Origin: Mugil cephalus
Taxonomy: Eukaryota; Chordata; Actinopteri; Mugiliformes; Mugilidae
DNA length: 64,000 bases
Direction of reading: 5' to 3'
NCBI RefSeq assembly: GCF_022458985.1
Contig: NC_061787.1
Span: forward strand, 219,001-283,000
In this document: one piece after another, positions 1 through 63,926 of the stretch
Layout of the letters: every line of letters starts with the position of its first letter
Numbering within the stretch: the first letter of the stretch is position 1
Translations under genes and position numbers: made by a program
Notes under the pieces: model-generated
Databases searched by the model: none
Told to the model about the DNA's origin: nothing
Seen by the model: the letters and a program-made list of their open reading frames with translations, nothing else

Positions 1-399
1 GCCGCGAGGCTCATTCCAGTAATTAATCTGACAAAAGAAATGAAAATGAAGAATTCATTCCAGTAACAGAACTCCTTAGAGATGAAAGAACCATTCCTCA
101 GCTCTAAATCTGTCACATGGACTAACAGGGGGGGGGGCTCTAGGGATTTCAATGCGAGTGACTGTAACATTCATGGAGACATGAATGTGCATGGACTTAC
201 ATAGAATAACCAGTGGGGAGACCCACAACTAGTAAACAAAGAATATGGCCTGTGACTGGAGGTAAATACCATCACAGGGCGATTCTCATAAAGCCTGTAA
301 ATGCAGCCAGTAGGAGGCGCTAGAGTCAACTGTTCTCTCATAACATTTGTATTAGAGTAACTGGTTGTTATCACATTTGCCTTTAACTGCCTGAAATGA
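1..399. other. Intergenic, no gene seen
   Basis: No exon-like or conserved coding signal is visible. A short direct repeat of CATTCCAGTAA occurs twice in the first 70 bases, and a G9 run lies near 129. Confidence 0.5.
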
Positions 400-565
400 C
401 TGAGATCATCCTCGGAAAAAAATACCTGATGTGTATTTGAGTGTTTTACTTTGTCCCAAGCCCCGCCCACTAACATAGAGGGGGAGGAGCTTATAATCTA
501 TACTGCAGTGTCCAGCCACCAGGGGGAGCTCTGCTAGCTCTGCTTCATTTACAGGAGCTGTACCA
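400..565 (-). repeat. Dispersed repeat R1, copy 1
   Basis: The reverse complement matches copies at about 1636-1830, 17040-17225 and 33185-33480. The shared core is a 'CCCCCTGGTGGCTGG' box, then 'CTGCAGTATAG', then 'CTATGTTAGTGGGCGGG' and an 'AACTAAAACAC' segment. No coding potential. The class is unknown; it behaves like a non-autonomous dispersed element. Confidence 0.75.
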
Positions 566-738
566 TCATCCGTCTTTATCCGTCCCCTGTCTCCTGTGGG
601 TGTGTCATCTGAGGACGTGTGGAGCCCCGTCCTCCCGGAAAGAGTGTGCGCTCCACATGCACACGGACTCACACATGTGGTCTGGTCTCTGCAGCAGCTG
701 CCGTCTCCTCATGTGAACCTGTTCGTCTCTGCCGCATT

Positions 739-1080
739 ACACACACACACACACACTACACACACATTACACAATACACACACACACACAATGCACACAC
801 AATTCACAGACACACACACACAATATACACATACACACAATGCACAGACACACACACACAATGCACACACAATGCACAGACACACACACACACAATACAC
901 ACACACACACATTACACACACACAATACACACATACACACACACAATATACACATACACACAATGCACAGACACACACACACAATATACACATGCACACA
1001 CACACACACAATGCACGCACACAATACACACACACACACATTACACACACACACACAATGCACACACACACACACACACA
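739..1080. repeat. (AC)n-rich compound microsatellite
   Basis: About 340 bp of CA dinucleotides interrupted by TTACAC, AATGCAC and AATATAC variants. Long open frames on both strands (Thr-His on +, Cys-Val on -) follow from the repeat and are not genes. Confidence 0.95.
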
Positions 1081-1208
1081 TCTGGATCGAAGTCTCCCAC
1101 GGCTGAATCATTAGTCACAGAGAAAATGGTTTGGACGTGATCACACACAGACACACACTCGTTAACCTCCATCAACCTCTGGTCTATAATCTCACAACAC
1201 CACTGAGT

Positions 1209-1259
1209 GAAGGAAGGAAGGAAGGAAGGAAGGAAGGAAGAAAGGAAGGAAGGAAGGAA

Positions 1260-1305
<46 letters not shown>

Positions 1306-1306
1306 G
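1209..1306. repeat. (GGAA)n/(GAAA)n microsatellite
   Basis: A homopurine tract that switches from GGAA units to GAAA units around 1260. A second AGAA run lies at about 1553-1583. Confidence 0.95.
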
Positions 1307-1483
1307 GAAGCTGATGTTTGGGTGAAAGAAGTAGTTCATGAGTTCATATGAGGTGAGTGGAATGTTTCCAGAATAATTCCTTCCTGTGGATTCACAGAGC
1401 GAAGCTGAACTAAAGATGAAAACACAGTGAACACATCGACTGATGAGAAAACCCGTGAGGAAGCTGTGACCTTCATCACGTCT

Positions 1484-1583
1484 GCAGGAGGAGGAGGAGG
1501 GGAGGAAGAGGAGGAGGAGGGGAGGATGGTGAAGGGCAGAGCCGGCCCTTAAAAGAAGAAAGAAAGAAAGAAAGAAAGAAAGA
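1484..1583. repeat. Purine-rich GGA and AGAA tract
   Basis: GAGGAGGAGG-type sequence (1484-1526) is followed, after a short spacer, by an AGAA run (1553-1583). Low complexity, no gene. Confidence 0.8.
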
Positions 1584-1635
1584 CACCGGAGTCAGTCAGA
1601 ACCCAGATGAGTCTGATTCCTCTTATTATTTCATC

Positions 1636-1830
1636 TCCACCACAGACTGTAAATAAATATGAACAGTTCCTCTAAAGTGAAGCTGAAGCTAGTAGAGCGC
1701 CCCCTGGTGTCTGGCTGCAGTATAGGTTATAAGCCCCACCCCCTCTATGTTAGTGGGCGGGGCTTGGGCCGAACTAAAACACGTTAATACGTCAGATACA
1801 TTTTTTTTAATTATTTGTTTCTGTCGTTTC
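1636..1830 (+). repeat. Dispersed repeat R1, copy 2
   Basis: Contains the R1 core in forward orientation (CCCCCTGGTG, CTGCAGTATAGG, CTATGTTAGTGGGCGGGGC), followed by a T-rich stretch. It lies inverted relative to copy 1, about 1.1 kb away. Confidence 0.8.
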
Positions 1831-2317
1831 ATGTAGTTTGATGTAGCTCCGCCCTGCGTCCGTACTGATCAGACACCACCTGTGTCTCTGTCCAATGAGA
1901 GGAAGTGGAGACGTGCTTATTACGCACAGTTCAGTGTTTTTAGTGTGGACACTTTCAGATTGTAGGAAACGTGAACGTCCTCCCAAGCTGAACTCAGGTT
2001 GAGCTGAGGACAGCTGCTCCTCACACGATCAAAGACGCTGGTTCACAGAAAGCAGCATGAGGCCGTGTGCTTGAAATAATGGGCTGAACAGGGAAACAAA
2101 CTGCAGCAGCAGCAGAAATGAGTGGATGGACGGGCTGGATGTATGTTCGCATGCATATGCTAATAAATCTAGAATAAAATATTATAATCCAGCTGTTAAT
2201 TACTCTCAAAGGCAGCATTTCATCAGCATCCTTCAGCCGCCGCCATCTGCTGCTGATTTAGTCTAAAATTACACATGTAGTGGAGGAGAAGCTGCAGAAG
2301 AATGACTGACAGAAACC
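1831..2317. other. Intergenic, nothing recognised
   Basis: Unique-looking sequence with no convincing exon, RNA gene or repeat apart from a short CAG run near 2103. Confidence 0.5.
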
Positions 2318-2530
2318 AGCTTTAAACAGGATCCTCCACAAGATCCATGTGGACGCTCACAGGTTTATAAGGAGGAAGCTTTAAACAGGATCCTCCACAA
2401 GATCCTCCACAGGATCCTCCACAGGATCACTGTGGACGCTCACAGCTTTAATAAGGAGGAAGCTTTAAACAGGATCCTCCACAGGATCCTCCACAGGATC
2501 CATGTGGACGCTCACAGGTTTATAAGGGAG
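2318..2530. repeat. GGATCCTCCACA minisatellite, higher-order
   Basis: Short units CAGGATCCTCCA(CA) are embedded in about three copies of a larger block that also contains ATGTGGACGCTCACAGG and TTTATAAGGAGGAAGC. Unit number varies between blocks. Confidence 0.85.
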
Positions 2531-2701
2531 AGCAGCTGCTTTCAGTCACATTTACCAGAGTTTGGTAAGACTCCACTTAAATTTCATTGTGGGCGTATTT
2601 CAATGGATATAGAGGAAAAAAACACAGAGGAGATAAAGACAGAACCTTAATAAGCACTAAATGATTAATAGTGCAAATGACTCCTTGCACTTTAAATCGC
2701 A

Positions 2702-2786
2702 CAGAACCTCAGAACCTCAGAACCACAGAACCACAGAACCTCAGAACCTCAGAACCACAGAACCTCAGAACCTCAGAACCTGACCA
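2702..2786. repeat. AGAACCTC/AGAACCAC minisatellite
   Basis: Eight- to nine-base units alternate between CAGAACCTC and CAGAACCAC, ending in GAACCTGACCAG. Confidence 0.85.
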
Positions 2787-2909
2787 GCAGGATCTATCTC
2801 TGCTCTTCATTCCATTATCCAGCCATGAGCTGTGTGTTACTTCTAATGCTGCTGGAGTCCTGCGACAAAGAGGCTGAGCTCTAGGAAGCACTGGACCACG
2901 TCCACATCC

Positions 2910-3292
2910 ATCCATGGAGCAACTACACCTCCTCCCATCCATGGAGCAACTACACCTCCTCCCATCAATGGAGCAACCACACCTCCTCCCATCCATGGAG
3001 CAACTACACCTCCTCCCATCAATGGAGCAACCACACCTCCTCCCATCCATGGAGCAACTACACCTCCTCCCATCCATGGAGCAACTACACCTCCTCCCAT
3101 CAATGGAGCAACCACACCTCCTCCCATCCATGGAGCAACTACACCTCCTTCCATCCATGGAGCAACTACACCTCCTCCCATCAATGGAGCAACCACACCT
3201 CCTCCCATCCATGGAGCAACTACACCTCCTCCCATCAATGGAGCAACTACACCTCCTTCCATCCATGGAGCAACTACACCTCCTCCCGACCT
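2910..3292. repeat. 27-bp minisatellite, about 14 copies
   Basis: The unit is CATGGAGCAACTACACCTCCTCC plus four bases, with CCATCC/CCATCA and CAACTA/CAACCA variants. Because 27 is a multiple of three and the unit has no stop, + gives a repeated MEQLHLLPS frame and - gives GGGVVAPWM and GRRCSCSMD frames. No splice or family evidence supports a gene. Confidence 0.95.
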
Positions 3293-3456
3293 CCAGGCGC
3301 TTTGTCTGACCACTGCTAACCAACACATGTGGCCTCAGTGACTCTCATCCTGTCGCACTCACATCCATCAAAGATTCAAGAACGTCATCATGAAGCACAT
3401 TAAGACCTTTACTGAACCCAACAGTTTTTTTAGTATCATTATCATCATTCCTCCTG

Positions 3457-3480
3457 CAAAAAAAAAAAAAAAAAAAAAAC
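3457..3480. repeat. Poly(A) run
   Basis: About 20 consecutive A residues. It may be a retroelement tail, but no flanking duplication was identified. Confidence 0.7.
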
Positions 3481-3830
3481 CTCTCAAATATCTAAAGCTA
3501 AAACATATTTACACTCTCATGAGTGAGAAAGTGTATCACAAAAGTGTAATGGAAACACTTTTCCACATTTCCCCGTCACTGGAGATGATGCGGGGGTCAT
3601 GTGACCAGTTCATTAGAAATCTACTTCCTGAAAGTGAAGTTTTAGTTCATTTGTAAAACACATTTCAATAGAAACACACATAAAGAACAACTGCACTTTA
3701 TCAAAATTACAGAAATGTCGATTTTATTTAGTGAAAACACTGTGACGTGACCACATAGTGACCACATGGTGACCACTCTCTGCTGGCTATCAACCCCCCC
3801 ACGCTCCATAACAAACATTTACACCACTGA

Positions 3831-3864
<34 letters not shown>
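3831..3864. repeat. (CA)n microsatellite
   Basis: About 17 uninterrupted CA units. Confidence 0.95.
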
Positions 3865-3867
<3 letters not shown>

Positions 3868-4486
3868 GGAAAAGGTATTGGATTGTCGAGCAAACACAAC
3901 CACACTGTGTAACAGTTTCTTCCTTTAAGGACTCTTGAATTTCCTGAGACTGAACTGAACACACACAATGTTTACGCACAGTTACAAAGATACACAACAT
4001 ACACACTCTCTCACAATCCAATCATTAGATATTCAGGCCATTGCACAAACTGTGCTGCTCATCAGTCACATCTTTACAATCTACCTAACTTATAATTATC
4101 TGCTTATTATCGGAGCTGCTCTCTGTTGTTGTGTCTTCTGGCTTCGTATTGTCTGTGTTGAACAGTTTGTCTTTGCACCGTCTCTCATCTCTGAACTGTT
4201 TGTTCTCTTTGTGTTGTTTCAAGATTCTCACTTCATGATTGTAAAGTGCAGCGAGGTGCAGAGGATGTGAACATTTCTAAAAGCAAAATAAAGTCCTACC
4301 TCTGCAGTTTGCTTTCATCTGAAATGTATTTATCTTTACTCTGGTTATTTATTGAATTTTATTTATTTATCATTTTATCTTTTTAGTGGCTTTTAATAGA
4401 ATTTTATTTATTTTTACGTGTGTGTGTGTGCGTTTTTTTGTGTGGCCTCTTGTGTCTGCTGTTTTATTTAAGTTTGTTTGTTTGTT
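3865..4486. other. Intergenic, nothing recognised
   Basis: AT-rich sequence with an AAATAAAG-type hexamer near 4287 but no coding region upstream that it could serve. Confidence 0.4.
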
Positions 4487-4500
4487 TGATTGTTTGATTG

Positions 4501-4566
<66 letters not shown>
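4487..4566. repeat. (TTGA)n microsatellite
   Basis: TTTG units grade into TTGA units; about 15 uninterrupted TTGA copies follow. Confidence 0.95.
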
Positions 4567-5409
4567 GTGTCATCTTCTCTCACTACGTGGTGCACCTGCT
4601 ATAAACGGTAGAACTGACCACAGAAAACCTCTTGATGTGATCGTGTCTCCAGAGATGACGTCGTCATTGTCTTCACAGTTACTTATGGTTCTGGTGACTA
4701 AAGCAACTCTTTTCTGTCTCATTTAACCTCTCATGGTGCCAGAAGACGGACAGCGATGGCTGAAGTTAATGAAGATCACCAGGTCTGTCTTCTTGATGTT
4801 CCTGGAGCCATGAAGGTAAAATAAATAAAATGAAATAAGAGGACCTCAGCATGGAGCCTTGTGGTACTCCACAGGAGATTGCTGCAGAAAATGGCAAAAA
4901 TGCAAAAATACCAAAAATGTGATGACTGGTAATGATGTTGCACTGTTACTTAGAACATGAAACCTTGTGTCTTCATTCAATGGGCATCGCTTGGTTTTGT
5001 TGACTGGGATTATAATTCGGAAGCTCTCAGAAAAAATCAGTCGTCACATGTGTGATGTGTTCAGGTTTATCCCCAGACAGCAGCACATCACTTTCTATAT
5101 GAGAAATATCAGAGATTATTAGCTAAGATTATTAACAAAAAAAAAAAAAAAACACCTTCAGGTTCACTGTGTTCACCTCATTTGAATGAGACAGCCTGTC
5201 CTTCAGCCGTCTGCTGTGTTTGTTTCTATAGAGTCCATTAGACCTCAGCTCGGGAAATTACAGTGTAAATGAGAGAGTGAAAGAGAGAGGAGGACTCTGG
5301 ATGCCTAGCAACAACCACTTGCTGCTTTCTCCCCGTGAATCTGAGACAGTCTCTCATACTGACTCAATCAGACGCCTTCAGCCTCTAGAGCCACGGGCTG
5401 ATTTTATCT

Positions 5410-5665
5410 CTCAGAACACTGATAATTTAGCCAATTAAACTCTGTGTTTATTTGTCCAATTAAGCCTCGTATTAAGTGATCATCTCACAGGTGCAGTTGG
5501 GTCTAATTGGGAAGATGTCATCTGCCCAACACATTAACACAGAGACGTTAATTGAGGCAGCTCATTAAGGAATTAGCTCATTAACACAGATCACAGTTAT
5601 TTTACATGACAGTTAGATGCGGTGGTGATGCACCTGAATGTTCAGCTGATATTCATTTACAGTAT
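5410..5665. promoter_or_regulatory. ATTA/TAAT-dense candidate enhancer
   Basis: This stretch is unlike its surroundings: it has a cluster of homeodomain-type cores, including CCAATTAAAC, TCCAATTAAG, TCTAATTGGG, TTAATTGAGG, CTCATTAAGG, AATTAGC and CATTAACAC, with no open frame or repeat. Dense TAAT clusters of this kind are common in vertebrate conserved noncoding elements. The call rests on motif density only, because conservation cannot be tested here. Confidence 0.3.
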
Positions 5666-5769
5666 ATTATGACCCCAGCGTGTCCCTGCTGAAGATCTAG
5701 AGCTCTTCACTTCTGTCTTGGCCTGATTTCTGAGATCAAAGATTATTATACATGAACCGAGTTAGAGGA

Positions 5770-5985
5770 GTTTTACCTTGGGACTAAAACACTGAAGTAC
5801 ACGTCAGATATATTCTTTTCATGGTTATTTGACGCTAAAGAAACAGGACGTGATATCATGATGACTTCAGAGTAGGAAAAATAAATACAAGTGCAGTGTT
5901 TAAACCAATATTTGGGGGTAAAGCAGAGCGCAGTATTAATCAGAACTAAACTACAGGAAAACTCTCAGAAAATAGCGCCGGTACA
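5770..5985 (+). repeat. Diverged 3' part of repeat R1
   Basis: Contains ACTAAAACACTG, ACACGTCAGATA, GAAACAGGACGTGAT and a CAGAGCGCAGT segment in the same order as the 3' portion of R1 copies at 1780 and 33330. The 5' core is missing. Confidence 0.5.
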
Positions 5986-8900
5986 GTCACTGCAAGGAAG
6001 TGGAGAAATGTCGTCCATGTTATTATACAGTCTAGTCTAACTCTCCTGAGTGTCTGCTCCCTGGTCTTACAGTTTGTGCAGATGTTTCCTAAATGTGAGG
6101 ATATTTTGATCAGGTGGACACTTTAAAAAGCCCTGTTAAAGATGTCCTGTCGGGAGACTAAAGAACCTCCTACAGTCAGGAACAGGTTCTGGTCAAACCT
6201 GGTTCAGCATTACAGAAGCTTTTCTCTTTATTCTGCGTTCGAGGTCATGATCCTTGGACGTGAACTTGACAAACAGTCTAAACTTTTAAGGAGTTTTTTG
6301 CCTTGAACTACCTATAACCGAATGTGGCTGTTATACTTTTGCCCGGTTGGTTTTTAGCTGCTGCTCCACAGTGAGCTAACCTTAACCTGAAGCACTTTCA
6401 GACTGACAGTCTGAGTTCAGGGTTAAAGAGTCCGTTTCCCGTTACCACCCCCACTCTTTAGGTTTTCTATAAGAAGAGTACAGTTCATCCTCCTTCACTT
6501 CCCATGTGGTTCTTGCTCTTTTCTCTTTCTGTCCTACTAGTCCGCACAGACGCCGCCCAGCACCACATTAAACATTCATGCTGCCAACAAACAGAGGAAA
6601 ATGGTTTCATCTGGAGTGTGTGAGGTCAGCGGATGAAGCGATGAAAAACTGGAGGGAACAGAAGACGGCGGCTGTGTTTGAAAAGACAAATTGTTTCAGC
6701 GGTGAGCAAACACAAGGCGAGAGAGCGTCTCACCCTTCTTCATAATTCAGAGACGTTGTGACAAAAGACTTTTGGTGAACTAACCTCAACTTTGAGGCGG
6801 CTGATTGACACATGAGTTCCCCAAACACTTACGTGGAGGAAACGCTGTCTACTACCCACCACTAAATTCACCATTTAATCCACCATGCTAGTGGTCAGGT
6901 GAGCTGGTAGACTTTCTAGCTCCGCCCCATTGTTTCAGTCCTTATGTATCGTCCCCATTTTCAATGTAAATTTTCTACAGATTTGTGTTTTTGTTTATCA
7001 GTTCATCCTGAAGCTACTTCCGACCTGTTGTCATTCTGCATTTCAGTTCAGTTCCCAAATACATGGTTCCATTTCATTTGGATCTGCATTGGCTTTGGCT
7101 AAAACTGTCCCTATTCTTCCTGGAGTCCACACCCAACACAATACTGCAGTAATGAATTACTTAGCAGTACTCCATTAGGTTTCAATACATGGTCAGCAAA
7201 TCTTTTTTGCAAATTTTTTTAGACCACTTGCTGGGCTCCTCATTAATGGAACTTGTTACCAGCTCACATTAGAAACTGTTCCAGTCTAAATCCATTCAAG
7301 ATGCAAACAAAACATCTTTTATTGGACCAAGTGAGGATTTCAAATTCACAATCCATCCACTTACATAATATTTAATGTTATATCATCTCCACAACTTTGT
7401 CTGCATTTGGTTAAACCCCACAGGACGTCAGCGTTATGAGACTGATGGAGTTTTATTCTTGTAGCTGAATATTTTATGGTTTCGGTGTGTGCGACCATCG
7501 CTGGCCTCCCTGGACCTGGTTCATGGATCTTTACTGAGTGGACTGACCTTGTGTGGCAGAGAGGACAGTGCTACACCTCAGTGAATGGAGGGAGAAGGAA
7601 GGACAGGAAAGTGGAGGAAACTGCGTAAGTTTCGCATGTTTCATGTCTCATAACAGCAGCATTAATGTTGGACTGGAGGCTGGTGACGGTGCTTTGTCAG
7701 ATACTGGCCCCTGATACTACACCACTACGATGAATTAAAAAGAATTACAGGCTGTATGTTTGTATACGGTGTGTAGTGATGATGCTCATGCGCCGCCTCT
7801 TCTACGTTTTTTGGTTTGGAGTTCTGTAGCGCCACACATAGGCCTGGGATATGTACTACAGTCTTTCCTTTTGTAATGGACCCACTTTTATGGAGAAATT
7901 CTCGACGTGACTCTAAGAAAAACTGGAGAAAAAAAGGCCTGAGTCACGTCACACAGGATTACTAGAGTCCAGAGGGTTTCCCTGTAGATTTCTGGAGAGA
8001 TGAGTCCAGGAGGGGAAGGGGTCCCAGTGGAGGAGCTAAGTCAAAGTCAGGGCTGCAGCCTCTAAGGACTGTGCCCAGCAGTTTGTGGATTGGATGTTTG
8101 ATCAGGACACAAGAGACATGGATATAGAGGCAAACCTGGGACCCCTCAATCCCAAGCTGCAGCTCTAAACCACTACTGGACAGGCCCATCATGGCGACTG
8201 GGGGGCTGTGATGGGATGCTGCTGGAGCTGGAGGACGCCTGTAGGAAGCCAACGCTTCTTTATAGAGAGTCATTTAATGCAGTATTTCTCCGTTTCATTC
8301 AATAATGACTTGTTCTGAGGTGCAGATTTGAACACGTCATGTGGACCGGATATGGGACGGGCCAAGCAAACGTCAGAGAACCTCTCACTGCATCTGGGTC
8401 ACATGACCTTTCACGAGTTCTTCGATCTTATCGATCTTTAGATTCAGTAGCTTAATGCTCCAGGATACAAAGGGTTGGATTGGATATATTTCCTGTTTCT
8501 GTGAGAGCATTAGTCCTGAGTCCTTCTGACTCATTTACCTCTCAACACTGAGTGATGCTAAATATGCCCTGAATATTATAATGCAATCAGCCGAAGCACA
8601 ACAGCAATGACGTGTGAAATCGCTGTGTAGTTGGTGCTGAGGTGGCTGCAGCTTTATTACCTGAACATTAGGCAACATTAAACATCCACCAGGGTTTTCC
8701 CCCACACACTAATTAACAGTCCACAACCACTAAATGTTAGTCTAACTTCCCCTGACCTGTCCTCTCGTTTTTCTGTCTCTGCTCTGACGTTAATGGAAAC
8801 TGTTGCAGATACGTGGCCTCTTCACATGAAAAGAAGTCGGACTGAAATGTGAAGGACGCTCGGATGTTGTGGCTGCATATTGTGAAAGCAGAAGAGTTGG

Positions 8901-9072
8901 CCTCACTGGTGCTGAAGTAGATCTGATCAACGTTAACATTATCATCCGTCCTCAGAGATCAGATCATAAGTGTCCAGTTTAAAGTACAAGTGTGAACACT
9001 GATCTGATCTCAGACCATATTTGGAGGCGGCCTGAGACACATTTGACCTTATTCCTTAGAAGCTTCTATTCA
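5986..9072. other. Intergenic, no supported gene
   Basis: About 3 kb with scattered short open frames lacking any family match. A stretch near 7540-7625 reads like an exon next to a GTAAGT-like donor, but it has no recognisable protein or acceptor partner. No RNA gene seen. Confidence 0.4.
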
Positions 9073-55039: not shown

Positions 55040-56130
55040 TGAAGAAGAGATGATCGGTAACGTTACCTGAGCTGGTTCTGTTCTGGGATGAGCTCTAAAA
55101 CCGGACTGAAACTCTTCAGACAAACTGTTCCTGTTTAGATGTTTTAAAGAATTTAAAGATTAAATGAAGGTGTGTTTACAGTCTAACATCGGGGTCTAGA
55201 GTTGGTTTTTAAGGAACGGGTCGACACATTGATCTGGTTTAAGTTGTTAAATGACTCTTCTTCATGATTAGTGGAGTGATAAGTTCTGTCCATCTTTGCG
55301 TTTGCCTCCGGCTGAAAGTTACACCAGAGGCCGAGCTGCTGCGCTCGCAGCCAAATGATCCGTTAGTGTGGAGTTAATGGAGTTAATGGAGCTAATGCTG
55401 CTGTATTATCATAAATAACGAAGCAGTTAAGTCCTTCTATCCAGTTCAGACCAGCATCAACCTCTGGATCCACTGTCCAGATGTTAAGAAACGGTCTGAA
55501 ATTCAGCCAAATAAAAATGAAACTAAATGTTAGAAAATCTGCGTATGAGGCCTTTTAGTTTTCAGATAGTTTTAAATGGTTGAGCTCGAGGCAGAGCTGA
55601 GGAAGAGGAAGAGGAAAAGGAAGAGTGGTTGAACTGGAGCGACAGAACAGATTCACTGTCTCAGTCACTAGTTTGTTGGTCGTGTTTAGCAGAAATCTGA
55701 ACTCATCTCATCTTACAGCGAATCATTCATATCATTAATCATCTGTTATCGTTAATTAACTGGGTTCATGTGAAGTCTGTGTATATAGACAGTGGGAGTG
55801 ATGACGGCTGTGTTATCACTGTATCACTGTTCACTTACTCTGAATGTATCATGACTAAAGAGGGAACCTCAGCTGTTCCAGAGGTTTTATAGAAACGATC
55901 ATCTGTTATAATTTCACTCTGCAATTAAAAAAATAAATGAAAATATAACCAGGATCTTCTCTTCTTGTTCCTGTGTGACACTAGAATTAATGTCCACGTC
56001 ATTACTCCGGTTTATGTTGTAGATGCATGAAGAATATAATAGTTACATGTTCAGGTTATAGGTAAATTATAAGGTGCTTAGTAAAAGCTTGTCCTCCATC
56101 TTTATACTCGTTTGTCTGGTTTCATCATGA
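55040..56130. other. Intergenic, nothing recognised
   Basis: No gene, RNA or transposon protein supported. Contains a GAGGAAGAGGAAGAGG purine stretch near 55597. Confidence 0.5.
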
Positions 56131-56139
56131 CGTCCCACA

Positions 56140-56225
56140 ACCTCCACTATATATATTTATATATTTATCACACCTCCACTATATATATTTATATATTTAT
56201 CACACCACCTCCACTATATATATTT
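56140..56225. repeat. 32-35 bp AT-rich tandem repeat
   Basis: Three copies of CCTCCACTATATATATTTAT with ATATTTATCACA linkers. Confidence 0.9.
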
Positions 56226-56397
56226 ATGATATTTAAATGTTTTATGCTTCAGACCCGGAGCTGTTCTAAGTCTGTCTCATAGTTTCTCCTTCTCGCCCTC
56301 CTGGCTCATGTTCATGTCTTTGTATCTGTCCAGAACTTTGCTCTGTAAAGGTTTCGTTACCTGCTGATCTCATGTAGGATGAGTCTCCTCTTCAGAC

Positions 56398-56460
56398 GGA
56401 CTCCTCCTCCTCCTCCTCCTCCTCCTCCTCCTCCTCCACCTCCAGCTCCACCTCCACCTT
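56398..56460. repeat. (TCC)n microsatellite
   Basis: About 13 TCC units at 56398-56437 followed by CACCTCCAGCTCCACC variants. Confidence 0.95.
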
Positions 56461-57070
56461 TTTCTTTTTGAAATAAGAATCGTCTACACTTTAAGGTCAT
56501 TATAGGAAACTTACATATGTTCCAGTAAACGGGTAGAATTAGGTTGTTGTCCTAAAATGTCAGAGTCTAACTGTATATTTCATGTTTTTGGACTTTATTC
56601 AAACAATTCAAATATAAAAAGTCCAACGATACCTGGACATTTCTATCAGTCACGAGAATTAGTCTTTATTCTCATTGTGAGAACATCACAGGCCAACTTC
56701 AAGGCATAAATACATTTAAATGACACTTAAAAATGGAAAAAGTAAAAACATATGTAAAGAGAAAATGTAACAATGCTCATAAAGTGCAGCTTAGTGCAGG
56801 TTGAGTTTATACGGTTTATAATAAAAGCACAGAAATAACAGGATTTATCTAGGAACCTTAAAACCCATTTTTATTCCTTGTCTGATGCTTTTACTGTGTT
56901 TTATTTTAATTGTTTGTTTTACGTCTCGTGTTCTTATTTTACTCAGATAAACCACTTTGTTCCAGCTGGAGCTGTTTTTTTAAGTGCTATATAAATAGAG
57001 TTGAACAGGAGTCGTCCAGTCAGGACCTTTATGATGCCTGATCATGTCTGATCATGTCTGGGGATGCTGC
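56461..57070. other. Intergenic, nothing recognised
   Basis: AT-rich, with no exon or repeat recognised. Duplicated TGATCATGTCTG near 57038-57060. Confidence 0.45.
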
Positions 57071-57077
57071 TGCCATC

Positions 57078-57290
57078 TGGTCCTGGTCTGGTCCTGGTCT
57101 AGTCCTGGTCCGGTCCTGGTCCTGGTCCTGGTCCGTTACGGTCCCGGTCCCGGTCCCGGTCCCGGTCCTGGTCTAGTCCTGGTCCGGTCCTGGTCTAGTC
57201 CTGGTCCGGTCCTGGTCTGGTCCAGGTCCTGGTCCAGGTCCTGGTCCTGGTCCGGTCCTTGTCTGGTCCGGTCCTGGTCCGGTCCTGGTG
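57078..57290. repeat. (GGTCCT)n minisatellite
   Basis: GGTCCTGGTC, GGTCCGGTCC and GGTCTAGTCC modules mixed with GGTCCC hexamers, about 210 bp. Confidence 0.96.
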
Positions 57291-58291
57291 GGGGCTACAT
57301 GTCTAAGTAACAGGGCTATCGCAGGGCTTCTGTATTTCATCTTCTTTGGCTAATTGAGCCCAGTCTGGTGCTTTAAGGCTTTTTATTCCTGTTGGAATAA
57401 AAGGCTTTTAGTCCAGATGGTGAAGATCATAGGTTTGTGTCATGACAATGAAACAATGAAAGTGTTTGTAGAGCTGACAGTGACAGTGACTGTGGGGCAG
57501 TGCTCAGTATTGGGCAGTAGTGTGTCCTGTATTATTATGGGACTTGTTTACCTGAGTATGGAATCACTCCTCACACTTCTCCTTAACCACTGGAGCTTTG
57601 AGACGAGCAACAATATCGTGATAAAAAGACGAATCCATCAGGGAATATTCTGAGTGAAAGGTGAGTAAGAGTTCAGCAACAAGGCTTAGGCAGCAAAATA
57701 AAACCAACAGAAGAACCTCAGCCAAAGCCTCACAGCGCCTCCTCCTGTTTCTACAGGTTTACAGAACCCACGACCACCTGCTGGTGCTGAACCAAACACA
57801 CCTGCTCTCAGATAAGTTCGTTTTAAAAATGAATTTGGCTTCACTTCCATAAAAAGCTGAGGAACTTAGCGACGTCCTGCTGCCGCATGAGAACAACCTT
57901 TGACATCCAACTCTCATGTCTGTGGATCATTGACACACTTCTTATCTGCACAACAAACATTCAGAGTCGAGAGGAGGAAGGAAACGAGTCCGTTAAAAGT
58001 ATAATGATGACACCAGTCATCTCCAGAGGTGATGTGTTCAAATCTAAAGCCAAAACAAACCCTTTGTTATAAATCTATTCTCTGGGTGAAGGTCTTTACC
58101 TTCTCCACGCTGTCGCTGCCATCACGTGTTCACTGGACTTCGTCCAACAACAATAACGCTGTGACTCTTGGTCGTGCTGATCAGCTGATTTCCTGTTTTT
58201 CTCGCCTTGTGTTTGAGGAAGTCAAGTCGAACGAACAGTTTCACTTTCAAACCGCGTGTGAACAGAAAACCGTTTCAGACCAAGAACAATC
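57291..58291 (+). promoter_or_regulatory. acp5 upstream region and leader
   Basis: No other gene intervenes. A TATA-like CATAAAAAGC lies at about 57850, but the transcription start is unknown. Small frames here show no family resemblance. Confidence 0.25.
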
Positions 58292-58367
58292 ATGGGGAGG
58301 ATCAAGTGGGCAGCGCTGGTGTTCTGCTTCCAAAACTGCTGGCTCCTGTTTCAAGCTCTGGAACCAG
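58292..58367 (+). CDS. acp5 exon 1 (signal peptide)
   Basis: Encodes [20 protein letters not shown] and QALEP plus one base. The donor GAACCAG|GTACGT is also the first unit of the following minisatellite. Confidence 0.85.
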
Positions 58368-61300
58368 GTACGTAGAGAACCAGGTACCGTAGAGAACCAG
58401 CTACTGTAGAGAACCAGCTAGAGAACCAGGTACAGAACCAGCTACTGTAGAGAACCAGCTAGAGAACCAGGTACCATAGAGAACCAGGTACAGAACCAGC
58501 TACTGTAGAGAACCAGCTACCGTAGAGAACCAGCTACCGTAGAGAACTAGCTACTGTAGAGAACCAGCTAGAGAACCAGCTACCGTAGAGAACCAGGTAC
58601 AGAACCAGCTACTGTAGAAAACCAGGTACAGAACCAGCTACTGTAGAAAACCAGGTACCGTAGAGAACCAGCTAGAGAACCAGGTACTGTAGAGAACCAG
58701 GTACAGAACTCATTCAGACCAAGTAAATGTTTGAATGTTAACAGCAGATATTTAATTTTATGGACATTGATTCTCATTCATTAGTTTAATGAGGTCAGTT
58801 CCTTAGTTTCAGATAAACAGTGAGAGGAACAACACAAGGTTCATGTTTTTTTGTGTTGTTCCTAAAACGTTTTAACGAGGGTGCGGTGGTGTATTGTACT
58901 ATTGTGTATATGTGTGTATATATATGTGTATATATATCTGTGTATATATATATGCGTATATGTGTATATATATGTATGTATACAGTGCTATTGGTGTAGT
59001 AGAGTCACAGAAAAACAAAAGACCAGAGGCTCATGATGTAGATGCTGCTGATTCTGCACAATTTAATCAGACACTGAAAACTTTCTAAAGGGTTTGGGAT
59101 AATTAGGAAGTCGATTATTGGCTATAAAGAAGTTATTTAAAAAGACATTTATTTAATAAACCAAATGCAATTTGGGGATTGTTGATTTGATGAATATTAA
59201 ATATACTAAGTTTGACGTCTCGGAGCAGAGAAGGAACTGGTTCTAGTTCAGATGGATGAGAACTGGTCCAGACAATATTAATAATAAATAAAAGAATAAA
59301 TCACTGAGTAATAAAGAAAATAATAAACAAAGGAAATAATGGCAGCGCGTAGTTCAGTTAGTGACGTCATTCAAACCGGTGGCTCGTGTCATAGTGAATG
59401 TTTCTGAAGACTAAACAGCAGATAAAAACATACAAAGAAGTGAAGAGTGGTCCAGGTCCAGAAGAACAATGAATTGTCACAAGATGTTCAGTGGTCATAA
59501 TGTTGTGGCTGATGGGTGTATGTAGTAAATGTTGGTTGAATCTAAGAACGGAGCCTGTTGTTCACAGCTGCTCTGCGGTTCGTCGGGCTCGGGGACTGGG
59601 GGGGCATCCCCATCCCTCCCTACTACAGCCCTCATGAGGAGGCCGTGGCTGCAGAGCTGGACCGGCTGGTCCGGTCCGAGGGCGTCGACTTCGTCCTCAG
59701 CCTGGGCGACCACTTCTACTTCAGTGGTGTCAAAGACGTGGAAGACCCTCGCTTCAAGGTCAGTGACTGGAGGAAACGTTCGTTTTTATCAGGTTACAAA
59801 ATGCAAAGAGCAAAGAAAAGAAAAGTCTAAGTCCCATCAGTACCTGGTGTTTCTAGAACGTTCCCTTCAGTCCAGCATCAGTTCATCCAGGTCCTCTGGT
59901 CCCATGTGTCTCCCATCGGCCTCTGTAGCCTCTGTGAGACCTGGGGAGTGGCACAAAAATTCACAGCCAGTTACCACCCACAAGCTAACTTACCAGAAAG
60001 GGCTGATCGGACAGTTAAGACAATGAAATCCTCCTATGTGGGAGACAAACACAATAAATGGGATCCGTGGATCTCAGAGTTCTGTTTTACAATTAAAACC
60101 ATGACCATGAAACCACAGGTGAAACCCCAGCAGAACTAGCCCAGGGAAGGATCCTTAAGGGGCCAAAATAAATAAAAAATGAAGCGAGCGTAGCCCGTAA
60201 AGCAATAAAATGGAAGTTGTAGTAAAACAACGTGTTTTCTCTGTCATATGAAGAATTAAAAAATGTGAGTTTTCCGTTAGATGGTGATTTTTCCTAAATA
60301 TACGTAATATAAAACCTTATTTCTGTTAAATGAGGGACCCCATATATCCGTGATGGATTTTTTGTGTGTTTTTCTATGGGTTTATGGGAATAGTGTGTGT
60401 TTTCTTGCTGTATATTATTCATTTCACTTAGAGGAAAATAATTATCCTGAAAAGATCCCGTGATCTGTAAAGCGTGTTTTCCCATCCACAGCACACGTAC
60501 GAGCAGGTCTTCTCTGAGCCGTCTCTCCTGGACGTCCCGTGGTACCTGACCGCTGGAAACCACGACCACAGGGGCAACATCTCGGCTCAGGTGGCTTATT
60601 CAGACGTGTCCCACAGATGGTAAACGTCCAGTCGTCCTGTCACGTCCACCTTGGCTCTTACTGTTACTGTTTCATGGTGTCCTCAGCTGCCCTTGGTTTT
60701 AACATATAAGCTTTTATTTTGTTTGTGCTGTAGGAACTACCCCAGTCTATATTATGACCTCCACTTTACTGTCCCTCGCTCCAACGTGTCCGTGGACATC
60801 CTGATGATTGACACCGTGGTCCTATGTGGAAACACCTACGATCAGGTGCAGCCTTCGGGCCCAGAGGATCCGGACACAGCGGATCGTCAGTGGGACTGGA
60901 TCAGGACTAAACTAGCCAGCAGCTTGTAAGTTGGTATCAGAGCTCAGACAGAGGCTGTTTGGATGTAGACAGATTCACACTGACGTCTTTTTACCAGGGC
61001 CGACTACGTGGTGGTGGCCGGTCATTATCCCGTGTGGTCCATTGGACACCATGGACCTACGTCCTGTCTGGTCAACAAGCTGAGACCTCTCCTGAAAAAA
61101 TACAGAGTCTCTGTGTATTTGTCCGGCCACGATCATGATCTGCAGGTACGTACGGTATAATGACAAGATGAATACATGGAAAACAGAGAAATGAAGGTCA
61201 ATAAAGAACCTCCATCTCCATCTCATGAACCAATCAGAGCTGTGTCTGAGTAAATGCTGAATGATGCAACATGTCATTTTCTTCTGGTTTCACTGATAAA

Positions 61301-62474
61301 AGTCATTATAGGATTCAACCAACAAAACAACTTGTTATTTTTTAACTGTGTTCCAGCTTTGATTCCTCTAGAACTAAACCACGTAGAGAGATTCTGACTT
61401 TTATGTAGAAACTTCAGAGTCTTGTCTTTGAAAAGAGACAAAGACCATGAATGATCCAACACGTTCATCAGCAGCATTCACTTTATTCTCGCTACGTCCT
61501 CAACAGGAGTTAAACTACATGATTTCTACTATTACGCTCATTTTTCCGTCATCTTATCAAAGACAAACCTTTACAAATAATAGAAAAGAGCTAGAAACCC
61601 AGACACAGGCTAGTGGTTCAACACGTACTCGTACTGGTTTGGTCCGACGCTGATTTATGCCTTAATTGGGTAAAAAAAAGACTGTGGTCCCATGTGTGAG
61701 GTCTGGGTCTGGTTCAGGTTTTATCTGGTACCGGAGCCAAACTGGTTCTTTAGAAACGGTGCCGCTGCTTAAAGAATGACAACATACAAACGGAGCCTTT
61801 TTATTTTTAAGGGATTTAGTGACGTGTTGGTTAAACAGAATATTAATGTAAATAATATAAATACAACTAAGACTAAGAAGTAAATGAATAATAATAATAA
61901 TGAACCAGTGTGGTGGGGTCTGTCAGGCATCAGAGATTCTACATCTCTGGTCCTTTAATAAAATGCTATGCTAATGCTATGCTAATGCTATGTGTGGTCA
62001 GATGTTTCCTCCTTGTTGCATCTTTAGAGCTGAAGTCCAGACAAACTTTAGACAAACGTTTGGTCTCAGACGTGTTGAAGCTTCACTTCCATCCATGCAG
62101 CTATAGAGCTAAGGAGGCTAAGCTAATTAAACACTCACTGGAACCAGATCAGTCTGGTTACTACCGTTAGCATCATGGTTCCCAGTGTCAGGGCCCGTCC
62201 CCACTGATGCTTCCTTCCAACCCTCCACCAGTTCATCAGAGAAGAGCGTGGGCCCTCGTACGTGGTGAGTGGGAGTGGGACTGTCAGCGACCCGTCCTCC
62301 AGGAACCAGGACTCCATCCCCCGGTCCTGGCAGCTCTACTCCAGCCCTGTCAACCGCACAGACGGAGGCCTGGCCTACTTCCACATCACTGAGCGTCAGA
62401 TGACGGTCGGCTTCATGCAGACTGATGGAAAGTGTGTTTACCAGGCGGAGATACCGCGACGAGATACGGCCTGA
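58292..62474 (+). CDS. Tartrate-resistant acid phosphatase (acp5-like)
   Basis: Purple acid phosphatase with an Fe-Fe centre that hydrolyses phosphomonoesters at acid pH; secreted or lysosomal, the osteoclast and macrophage marker enzyme in vertebrates. Six exons join into a 325-aa frame, the same length as human ACP5. Signal peptide [20 protein letters not shown], then the metallophosphatase blocks in order: [32 protein letters not shown] and SGHDHDLQ. These supply the expected metal ligands (Asp, Asp and Tyr, Asn, His, His-x-His). Potential sequons: NIS, NVS and NRT. The residue after the bridging Asp is His here; human has Asn (GDNFYF). Teleosts have more than one acp5 copy, so the paralogue is not assigned. 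Start ATG has A at -3 and G at +4. Confidence 0.95.
58361..58707 (+). repeat. Minisatellite built on the acp5 exon 1 donor
   Basis: Units AGAACCAG(G/C)TAC(C/T)GTAG with truncated forms (AGAACCAGCTAG, GTACAG), about 23 copies. Nine copies after the true donor keep CCAGGTAC exactly; the others have CCAGCTA, which lacks GT. Confidence 0.97.
58708..59486 (+). other. acp5 intron 1, 3' part
   Basis: AT-rich with a TATATA/TGTGTA compound microsatellite at about 58899-58985. No exon. Confidence 0.6.
59487..59518. repeat. Solitary TIR-like end
   Basis: AGTGGTCATAATGTTGTGGC then TGATGGGTG resembles the right TIR of the elements in abcd3 introns 1 and 8. No matching left end was found upstream. Confidence 0.5.
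59568..59758 (+). CDS. acp5 exon 2 (first metal-binding blocks)
   Basis: Acceptor TTCACAG, donor AAG|GTCAGT. Encodes [20 protein letters not shown], continuing to [20 protein letters not shown]. Confidence 0.97.
59906..60140 (+). pseudogene. LTR (Gypsy-type) integrase fragment
   Basis: The + frame contains [20 protein letters not shown], then [20 protein letters not shown] and KWDPWISEF. This is the catalytic-core end of a retrotransposon integrase (the YHPQ(A/S)N...ER.NR.LK block with the final Glu). The frame ends in a stop. No LTRs or other domains are seen, so it is a short relic in acp5 intron 2. Confidence 0.8.
60492..60619 (+). CDS. acp5 exon 3
   Basis: Acceptor CCACAG, donor ATG|GTAAAC. 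Encodes [20 protein letters not shown] and [18 protein letters not shown]; Asn of GNHDH is a metal ligand. Confidence 0.97.
60734..60925 (+). CDS. acp5 exon 4
   Basis: Acceptor CTGTAG, donor CTT|GTAAGT. Encodes [37 protein letters not shown] and a [11 protein letters not shown] helix. Confidence 0.96.
60998..61145 (+). CDS. acp5 exon 5 (histidine ligands)
   Basis: Acceptor TACCAG, donor CAG|GTACGT. Encodes [20 protein letters not shown] and [17 protein letters not shown]; three metal-binding His residues are present. Confidence 0.97.
61146..61706 (+). other. acp5 intron 5, 5' part
   Basis: No exon or element recognised. Confidence 0.5.
61707..62172 (+). repeat. Dispersed repeat R2, copy 3 (longest)
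   Basis: Shares its first half with 47205-47490 (GGTTCAGGTTTTATCTGGTA, ACGGTGCCG, TAATGTAAATAATATAAAT) and its second half with the inverted copy at 9073-9318 (GCTATGCTAATGCTATGTG, AAACTTTAGACAAACGTTTGG, AGTCTGGTTACTACCG). It ends 60 bp before exon 6. Confidence 0.8.
62232..62474 (+). CDS. acp5 exon 6 (C terminus)
   Basis: Acceptor CCACCAG. 80 codons plus [23 protein letters not shown], then [20 protein letters not shown] and a basic end EIPRRDTA. Confidence 0.95.
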   Translation, partial: FIREERGPSYVVSGSGTVSDPSSRNQDSIPRSWQLYSSPVNRTDGGLAYFHITERQMTVGFMQTDGKCVYQAEIPRRDTA

Positions 62475-63003: not shown

Positions 63004-63207
63004 AAAGGAAATCGGTGGCATCGAACACATCACATCACTACGGTCTGTTCCTCTGAGCTGTCACCTCTCAGGTTCCAGCGTCTACGTCGCTCAGCTGCTG
63101 TTTAGGAGCTGACATGAAAGGAAACGTGTCTGTAAAGACCAACGTGAAAATGTGTAGATTTCATTTGGAAGTGAGTGCATACGTTTTGTAAAAGCAGAAC
63201 ATTGGCA

Positions 63208-63926
63208 GTGAAGGAGTGAAGGAGTAAAGGAGTGAAGGAATAAAGGAGTGAAGGAGTGAAGGAGTGAAGGAGTAAAGGAGTGAAGGAATAAAGGAGTGAA
63301 GGAGTAAAGGAGTGAAGGAGTGAAGGAGTAAAGGAGTAAAGGAGTAAAGGAATGAAGGAGTAAAGGAGTAAAGGAGTGAATGAGTAAAGGAGTAAAGGAG
63401 TAAAGGAGTAAAGGAATGAAGGAATGAAGGAGTGAAGGAGTAAAGGAGTAAAGGAGTGAATGAGTAAAGGAGTAAAGGAGTAAAGGAATGAAGGAGTAAA
63501 GGAATGAAGGAGTGAAGGAGTAAAGGAGTAAAGGAATGAAGGAGTGAAGGAGTGAAGGAGTAAAGGAGTGAAGGAGTAAAGGAGTAAAGGAGTGAAGGAG
63601 TAAAGGAGTAAAGGAGTGAAGGAGTGAAGGAGTAAAGGAGTGAAGGAGTAAAGGAGTAAGGAGTGAAGGAGTAAAGGAGTGAAGGAGTAAAGGAGTAAAG
63701 GAGTAAAGGAGTAAAGGAATGAAGGAGTGAAGGAGTGAAGGAGTAAAGGAGTGAAGGAGTAAAGGAGTAAAGGAATGAAGGAGTAAAGGAATGAAGGAGT
63801 GAAGGAGTAAAGGAGTGAATGAGTAAAGGAGTGAAGGAGTAAAGGAGTAAAGGAGTAAAGGAGTAAAGGAGTGAATGAGTAAAGGAGTAAAGGAGTGAAG
63901 GAGTAAAGGAGTGAAGGAGTAAAGGA
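63208..63926. repeat. C-free (GGAGTGAA/GGAGTAAA)n satellite
   Basis: About 720 bp of 8-bp GGAGTGAA, GGAGTAAA, GGAATGAA and GAGTGAAT units with no C on the + strand. The minus strand reads as repeated SFTPLLLY and is not a gene. Confidence 0.97.

Follow-up and report, generated by a model that had tools for sequence, protein, structure and literature searches.

The modeled splice donor of coding exon 1 in the acp5 gene of Mugil cephalus lies inside the first unit of a minisatellite that runs on from the exon edge into intron 1, and nine further units of this array repeat the exon-end and donor core. On balance, we favor a reading in which a tandem duplication of approximately 16-17 bp across the exon 1/intron 1 junction founded the minisatellite, which then expanded into intron 1 with copies that were weaker donors than the original, leaving the first donor dominant and the array mostly passive. 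We examined this locus in a 64-kb window (C18:219001-283000, i.e., the whole stretch of DNA analyzed) of a genome of 634.8 Mb in 24 contigs.

The gene model that hosts the array has six coding exons on the + strand, which together encode a protein of 325 aa. The coding part of exon 1 (58292..58367) ends in phase 1 and, judged by eye, corresponds to a signal peptide region of 25 residues; it is followed by an intron 1 of 1200 bp (58368..59567) and by coding exons 2 (59568-59758), 3 (60492-60619), 4 (60734-60925), 5 (60998-61145), and 6 (62232-62474), which were matched exon by exon. A search of PDB sequences settled the identity of the predicted protein as acp5, with human purple acid phosphatase 1war matching query residues 26-322 (E = 1.1e-108), i.e., homology to tartrate-resistant acid phosphatase (TRAP) over its full length. 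The alignment to 1qhw, which we take to be the rat structure, starts at query residue 20. The flanks of the gene hold two other features. Approximately 45-55 bases upstream of the start codon, at 58238-58248, is a stretch, GTTTCACTTTC (reverse complement GAAAGTGAAAC), which we take to be ISRE-like, and approximately 730 bp past the stop codon TRF reports a separate array of about 90 copies of the 8-bp unit AGTAAAGG (63207-63926).

A preliminary description of this DNA, made from the letters alone, had placed a repeat array directly against the exon 1 donor, and TRF bears this out, with a minisatellite called at 58361-58704 (period 17, 22.6 copies, score 261) and a second row of period 58 over the same array. 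Splitting the array at its GAACCAG core gives 23 units in all, a total that agrees with the roughly 23 repeats said to follow the junction, except that the junction unit is one of them and 22 follow. Unit 1 (58361..58376, + strand) is 16 bp long and contains the modeled donor, and its first seven bases, which are the repeat core, are also the last seven bases of exon 1 (58361-58367). Units 2-23 (58377..58705, + strand) are a mixture of 17-mers and 12-mers, and unit 23, a 12-mer, is followed by a degenerate core, GAACTCA. The repeat had been written as AGAACCAG(G/C)TAC, which is the core common to the units and not the period.

Examination of the units showed that CCAGGTAC occurs ten times in the array, once at the modeled junction (donor after 58367) and nine times further on, just as the preliminary description had counted, with possible donors after 58383, 58429, 58470, 58487, 58596, 58625, 58654, 58683, and 58700. 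The same CAG|GTAC core is thus found ten times in approximately 340 bases, with differences at positions +5 and +6. The remaining 13 of the 23 units carry a C for the G of GT; 12 of these read CCAGCTA, the form that had been given for all of them, and one reads CTAGCTA. The density of CAGGTAC in the array is far above chance, since the rest of the 64-kb window holds six on the + strand (one being the exon 5 donor) and three on the - strand, where approximately 3.5 per strand are expected. With head-to-tail copies of a unit longer than 9 bp, the array has the form of a minisatellite, a class whose units span approximately 10-100 bp. All three genomic occurrences of the 20-base word AGAACCAGGTACAGAACCAG fall inside it. 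The predicted RNA fold of 58350-58760 was unremarkable (z = -1.40, with 8 of 100 shuffles as good), and a scan of the array for bacterial promoters and terminators, a type of scan unsuited to a fish gene, gave no matches.

The simplest origin for this arrangement would be a duplication that spanned the junction, because unit 1 includes seven exon bases. The paralogue of acp5, located on C2, offers a comparison. It is 45% identical to acp5 over 299 aligned positions and has five coding exons, and it contains an intron at the same place, also in phase 1, of 110 bp and with the donor GTA|GTAAGT. This 110-bp intron contains no CAGGT, no GAACCAG, and no array. As the phase-1 intron is common to both genes, it is older than the split between them and need not have arrived with the array, which is either new in acp5 or lost from the paralogue. 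A comparable divergence, 42.27% similarity, is given for tilapia TRAP5 isoform X1 and TRAP5b (PMC10138680); naming our two copies acp5a and acp5b would be a guess made from pairwise identity rather than from a tree.

The preliminary description held that the array had grown from the exon edge. The position of the donor inside unit 1, the identity of the last seven exon bases with the core, and the absence of the array from the paralogue intron all speak for this; the distribution of the core in the genome speaks against any need for it. Three GAACCAG cores in a row give 913 + 917 (1,830) overlapping matches across the whole genome versus 6 + 9 (15) for the reversed control, and within the window but outside the acp5 array GAACCAG occurs 16 + 20 times versus approximately 5 and 6 expected, about a threefold excess. 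GAACCAG recurs widely as a minisatellite core here, and with its arrays so abundant nothing particular about the exon edge is required. By our own count, 100 of the 1,830 places, all on C1, form 20 separate arrays (gaps of more than 1 kb), which if C1 is typical would mean perhaps 370 arrays genome-wide. A hand estimate that assumes approximately 200,000 introns then gives roughly one array edge expected by chance within 8 bases of a donor on the same strand. One could therefore suppose that a prolific core happened to give rise to an array where an exon ended in GAACCAG, with the splice site playing no causal part; we regard this as possible but rather unlikely. Since the GTAC that lies past the end of the exon belongs to the repeat, the initial duplication must have spanned the junction in either case, and the two accounts part only over whether the splice site had a role.

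Donor-like words are also found in other repeats. Ladders of three CAGGTRAG, a strong donor word, give 352 + 502 (854) overlapping matches in the whole genome versus 7 + 33 (40) in the reversed control, and together with the abundance of the GAACCAG ladders this indicates that donor-like words in repeats are ordinary in this genome. The ladders listed for both words (100 of the 1,830 for GAACCAG and part of the 854 for CAGGTRAG) all lie at 23.8-28.5 Mb of the 54.5-Mb C1, and if the listing follows position the first 23.8 Mb of C1 is free of them. C1 has roughly double the length of C18 (23.5 Mb), which would be consistent with a chromosome that arose by fusion and whose former ends are rich in repeats. 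At the start of C18 (positions 1-9000) we found no TTAGGG and a single CCCTAA.

Under the favored reading, in which the duplication spanned the junction and its copies were weakened, the nine copies should be poorer donors than the original, and the letters after the core point in that direction. Only unit 1 has a G at +5, reading CAG|GTACGT, and the nine copies read GTACAG (five), GTACCG (two), GTACCA (one), and GTACTG (one). The GT-keeping 17-mers exceed unit 1 by one base, which sits at +5, and the GT-keeping 12-mers are four bases shorter than unit 1 through a shortened tail; both differences shift the G off +5. The expansion would thus have kept CAG|GTAC and lost the +5 G in these copies, with the 13 other units additionally swapping the G of GT for C. 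Among the modeled donors of acp5 and its paralogue, a set taken from the gene models alone, 8 of 9 have a G at +5 versus 0 of 9 copies; the Fisher p value of 0.0004 overstates the evidence, since the copies descend from one another and are not independent. The modeled exon 3 donor, GTAAAC, also has no G at +5. The importance that this position can have is illustrated by human MSTN, for which one paper describes a G to A change at +5 of intron 1 after which splicing shifts 108 bp downstream, to a cryptic site, and a premature stop results (PMC3045353). When all 104 GT sites from 58292 to 59566 were ranked by a self-compiled donor matrix, the exon 1 donor came first (score 9.27) and the nine copies took ranks 9-16 and 18 (scores 3.58-4.26). 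Seven GT sites that do not belong to the array, of which one is in exon 1 and the other six are in intron 1, ranked above the copies (the best at 58793, score 7.54).

The energies of pairing to U1 separate the sites poorly, at -7.6 kcal/mol for the exon 1 donor versus -7.1 kcal/mol for the copies, all nine of which retain CAG|GTA and with it six uninterrupted base pairs to U1. The donors of exons 2, 3, and 4 pair less well than the copies do (-6.2, -5.3, and -5.1 kcal/mol), and with copy energies this close to that of the exon 1 donor some use of the decoys is plausible. The ladder of decoy 5' splice sites that had been proposed is real as a pattern, comprising the nine further occurrences of CCAGGTAC, but judged from the sequence its rungs are putative sites that appear to be weakened rather than equal donors, even though the U1 energy differs little. 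The exon 5 donor (61143-61151) is the same 9-mer, CAGGTACGT, as the exon 1 donor, and TRF lists no array there.

What a decoy would produce can be read from unit 1. Continuing from exon 1, the frame reads GGT ACG TAG (58367-58375), and this TAG (58373-58375) would terminate any read-through product as well as every one of the nine possible decoy products. Whatever length a decoy added, it would retain unit 1, and splicing at any of the nine copies would yield one and the same 27-residue product ending in EPGT, with the stop at codon 28. The earlier expectation that decoys would give varied stops or frameshifts after the signal peptide does not hold. Messages spliced at a decoy would presumably be degraded, and rare decoy use would yield nothing more than a transcript truncated at codon 28; we infer that the exon 1 donor remains the best site and is used nearly always, and that the array is probably variable in length.

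A shared early stop could also serve a purpose, with some transcripts using a copy, stopping at codon 28, and presumably undergoing nonsense-mediated decay, so that repeat number tunes acp5 output. Such a throttle would draw on the six U1 pairs of every copy and on the single outcome from all of them, and two downstream repeat units of human IFI6 are reported to act as donors (PMC4526556, accessible part); against it, no copy has a +5 G and 13 of the 23 units have no GT, and we consider it improbable. It is compatible with either origin of the array, and the confidence that we place in the favored reading and in its rivals is not mutually exclusive. A related idea, to which we give still less credence, is that the run of CAG|GTA sites forms a landing strip on which nine weak donors would hold U1 snRNP near the promoter, one that would aid exon 1 definition or transcription, go unspliced for want of the +5 G, and let repeat number tune expression between individuals. 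Also very improbable is that exon 1 is mis-modeled and the gene starts elsewhere, which would make the array intergenic or part of a 5' untranslated intron: exon 1 is a modeled exon and its frame is only the 10th of the best 10 ATG frames by peak hydrophobicity (scan of 56000-59559), but the join between exons 1 and 2 has the phase (1) found in the paralogue, the 1qhw alignment already starts at query residue 20, the 325-aa model is close to the 324 aa given for tilapia TRAP5b in the accessible part of the source (PMC10138680), and visual inspection of the nine remaining listed candidates revealed no equally good phase-1 donor among the up to six donors listed for each.

A junction-spanning duplication followed by the weakening of its copies therefore remains our preferred account, and the array itself is most likely a mostly passive feature of the intron. 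It offers a natural test of how a cell chooses the right donor among many recurrences of one core, and it suggests that arrays are able to grow outward from the end of an exon provided that the donor copies are weakened. If the decoys did serve as donors, the length of the repeat would offer a simple means of controlling the gene of an osteoclast and macrophage enzyme.

Several known systems resemble the acp5 array in part. Introns can be gained by tandem duplication of proto-splice sites of the AGGT type, which like acp5 involves the copying of a short stretch with a splice-site core; that process creates a new intron, whereas the acp5 intron is an old one common to the paralogue and none was made. 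In the fish Sparus aurata, the first introns of GH and MSTN-2 contain repeats that are polymorphic in copy number, and the MSTN-2 block resembles the acp5 array in lying at the 5' end of intron 1, with extra splice sites predicted in that intron (PMC3045353). It differs in being a block of approximately 150 bp that is present once or twice, and the accessible part of that paper makes no mention of a donor as part of the unit (PMC3045353). DDX3Y with the MSY2 minisatellite was considered as a parallel and set aside, as the accessible part of the report concerns transcription starts within the minisatellite and not donors (PMC3039753). A literature search by titles and abstract openings gave no pointer to the acp5 array itself.

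The closest parallel is the human gene IFI6 (6-16, G1P3), for which Turri, Cuin and Porter reportedly described in 1995 a minisatellite that gives multiple splice donor sites. In IFI6, the real exon donor is one of the units, the unit is 12 bases long, and the reading frame is kept. If the class is defined by an exon donor within a repeat unit and by further units that repeat the donor core, acp5 is alike in that its modeled exon donor sits in a repeat unit and nine further units repeat CCAGGTAC. The two differ in outcome, since in IFI6 the downstream units are used and give three mRNA species and different isoforms (PMC4526556, accessible part), whereas in acp5 the predicted decoys have no +5 G and all would be stopped in unit 1. 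Alternative proteins from downstream units, a trait of IFI6 that is perhaps not a defining one, are not predicted for acp5, where the stop in unit 1 means that decoy use could give no longer protein, only the one short product. The acp5 array is probably an oddity that the gene tolerates, of a type for which IFI6 already provides an example, and as it stands a curiosity with a human precedent.
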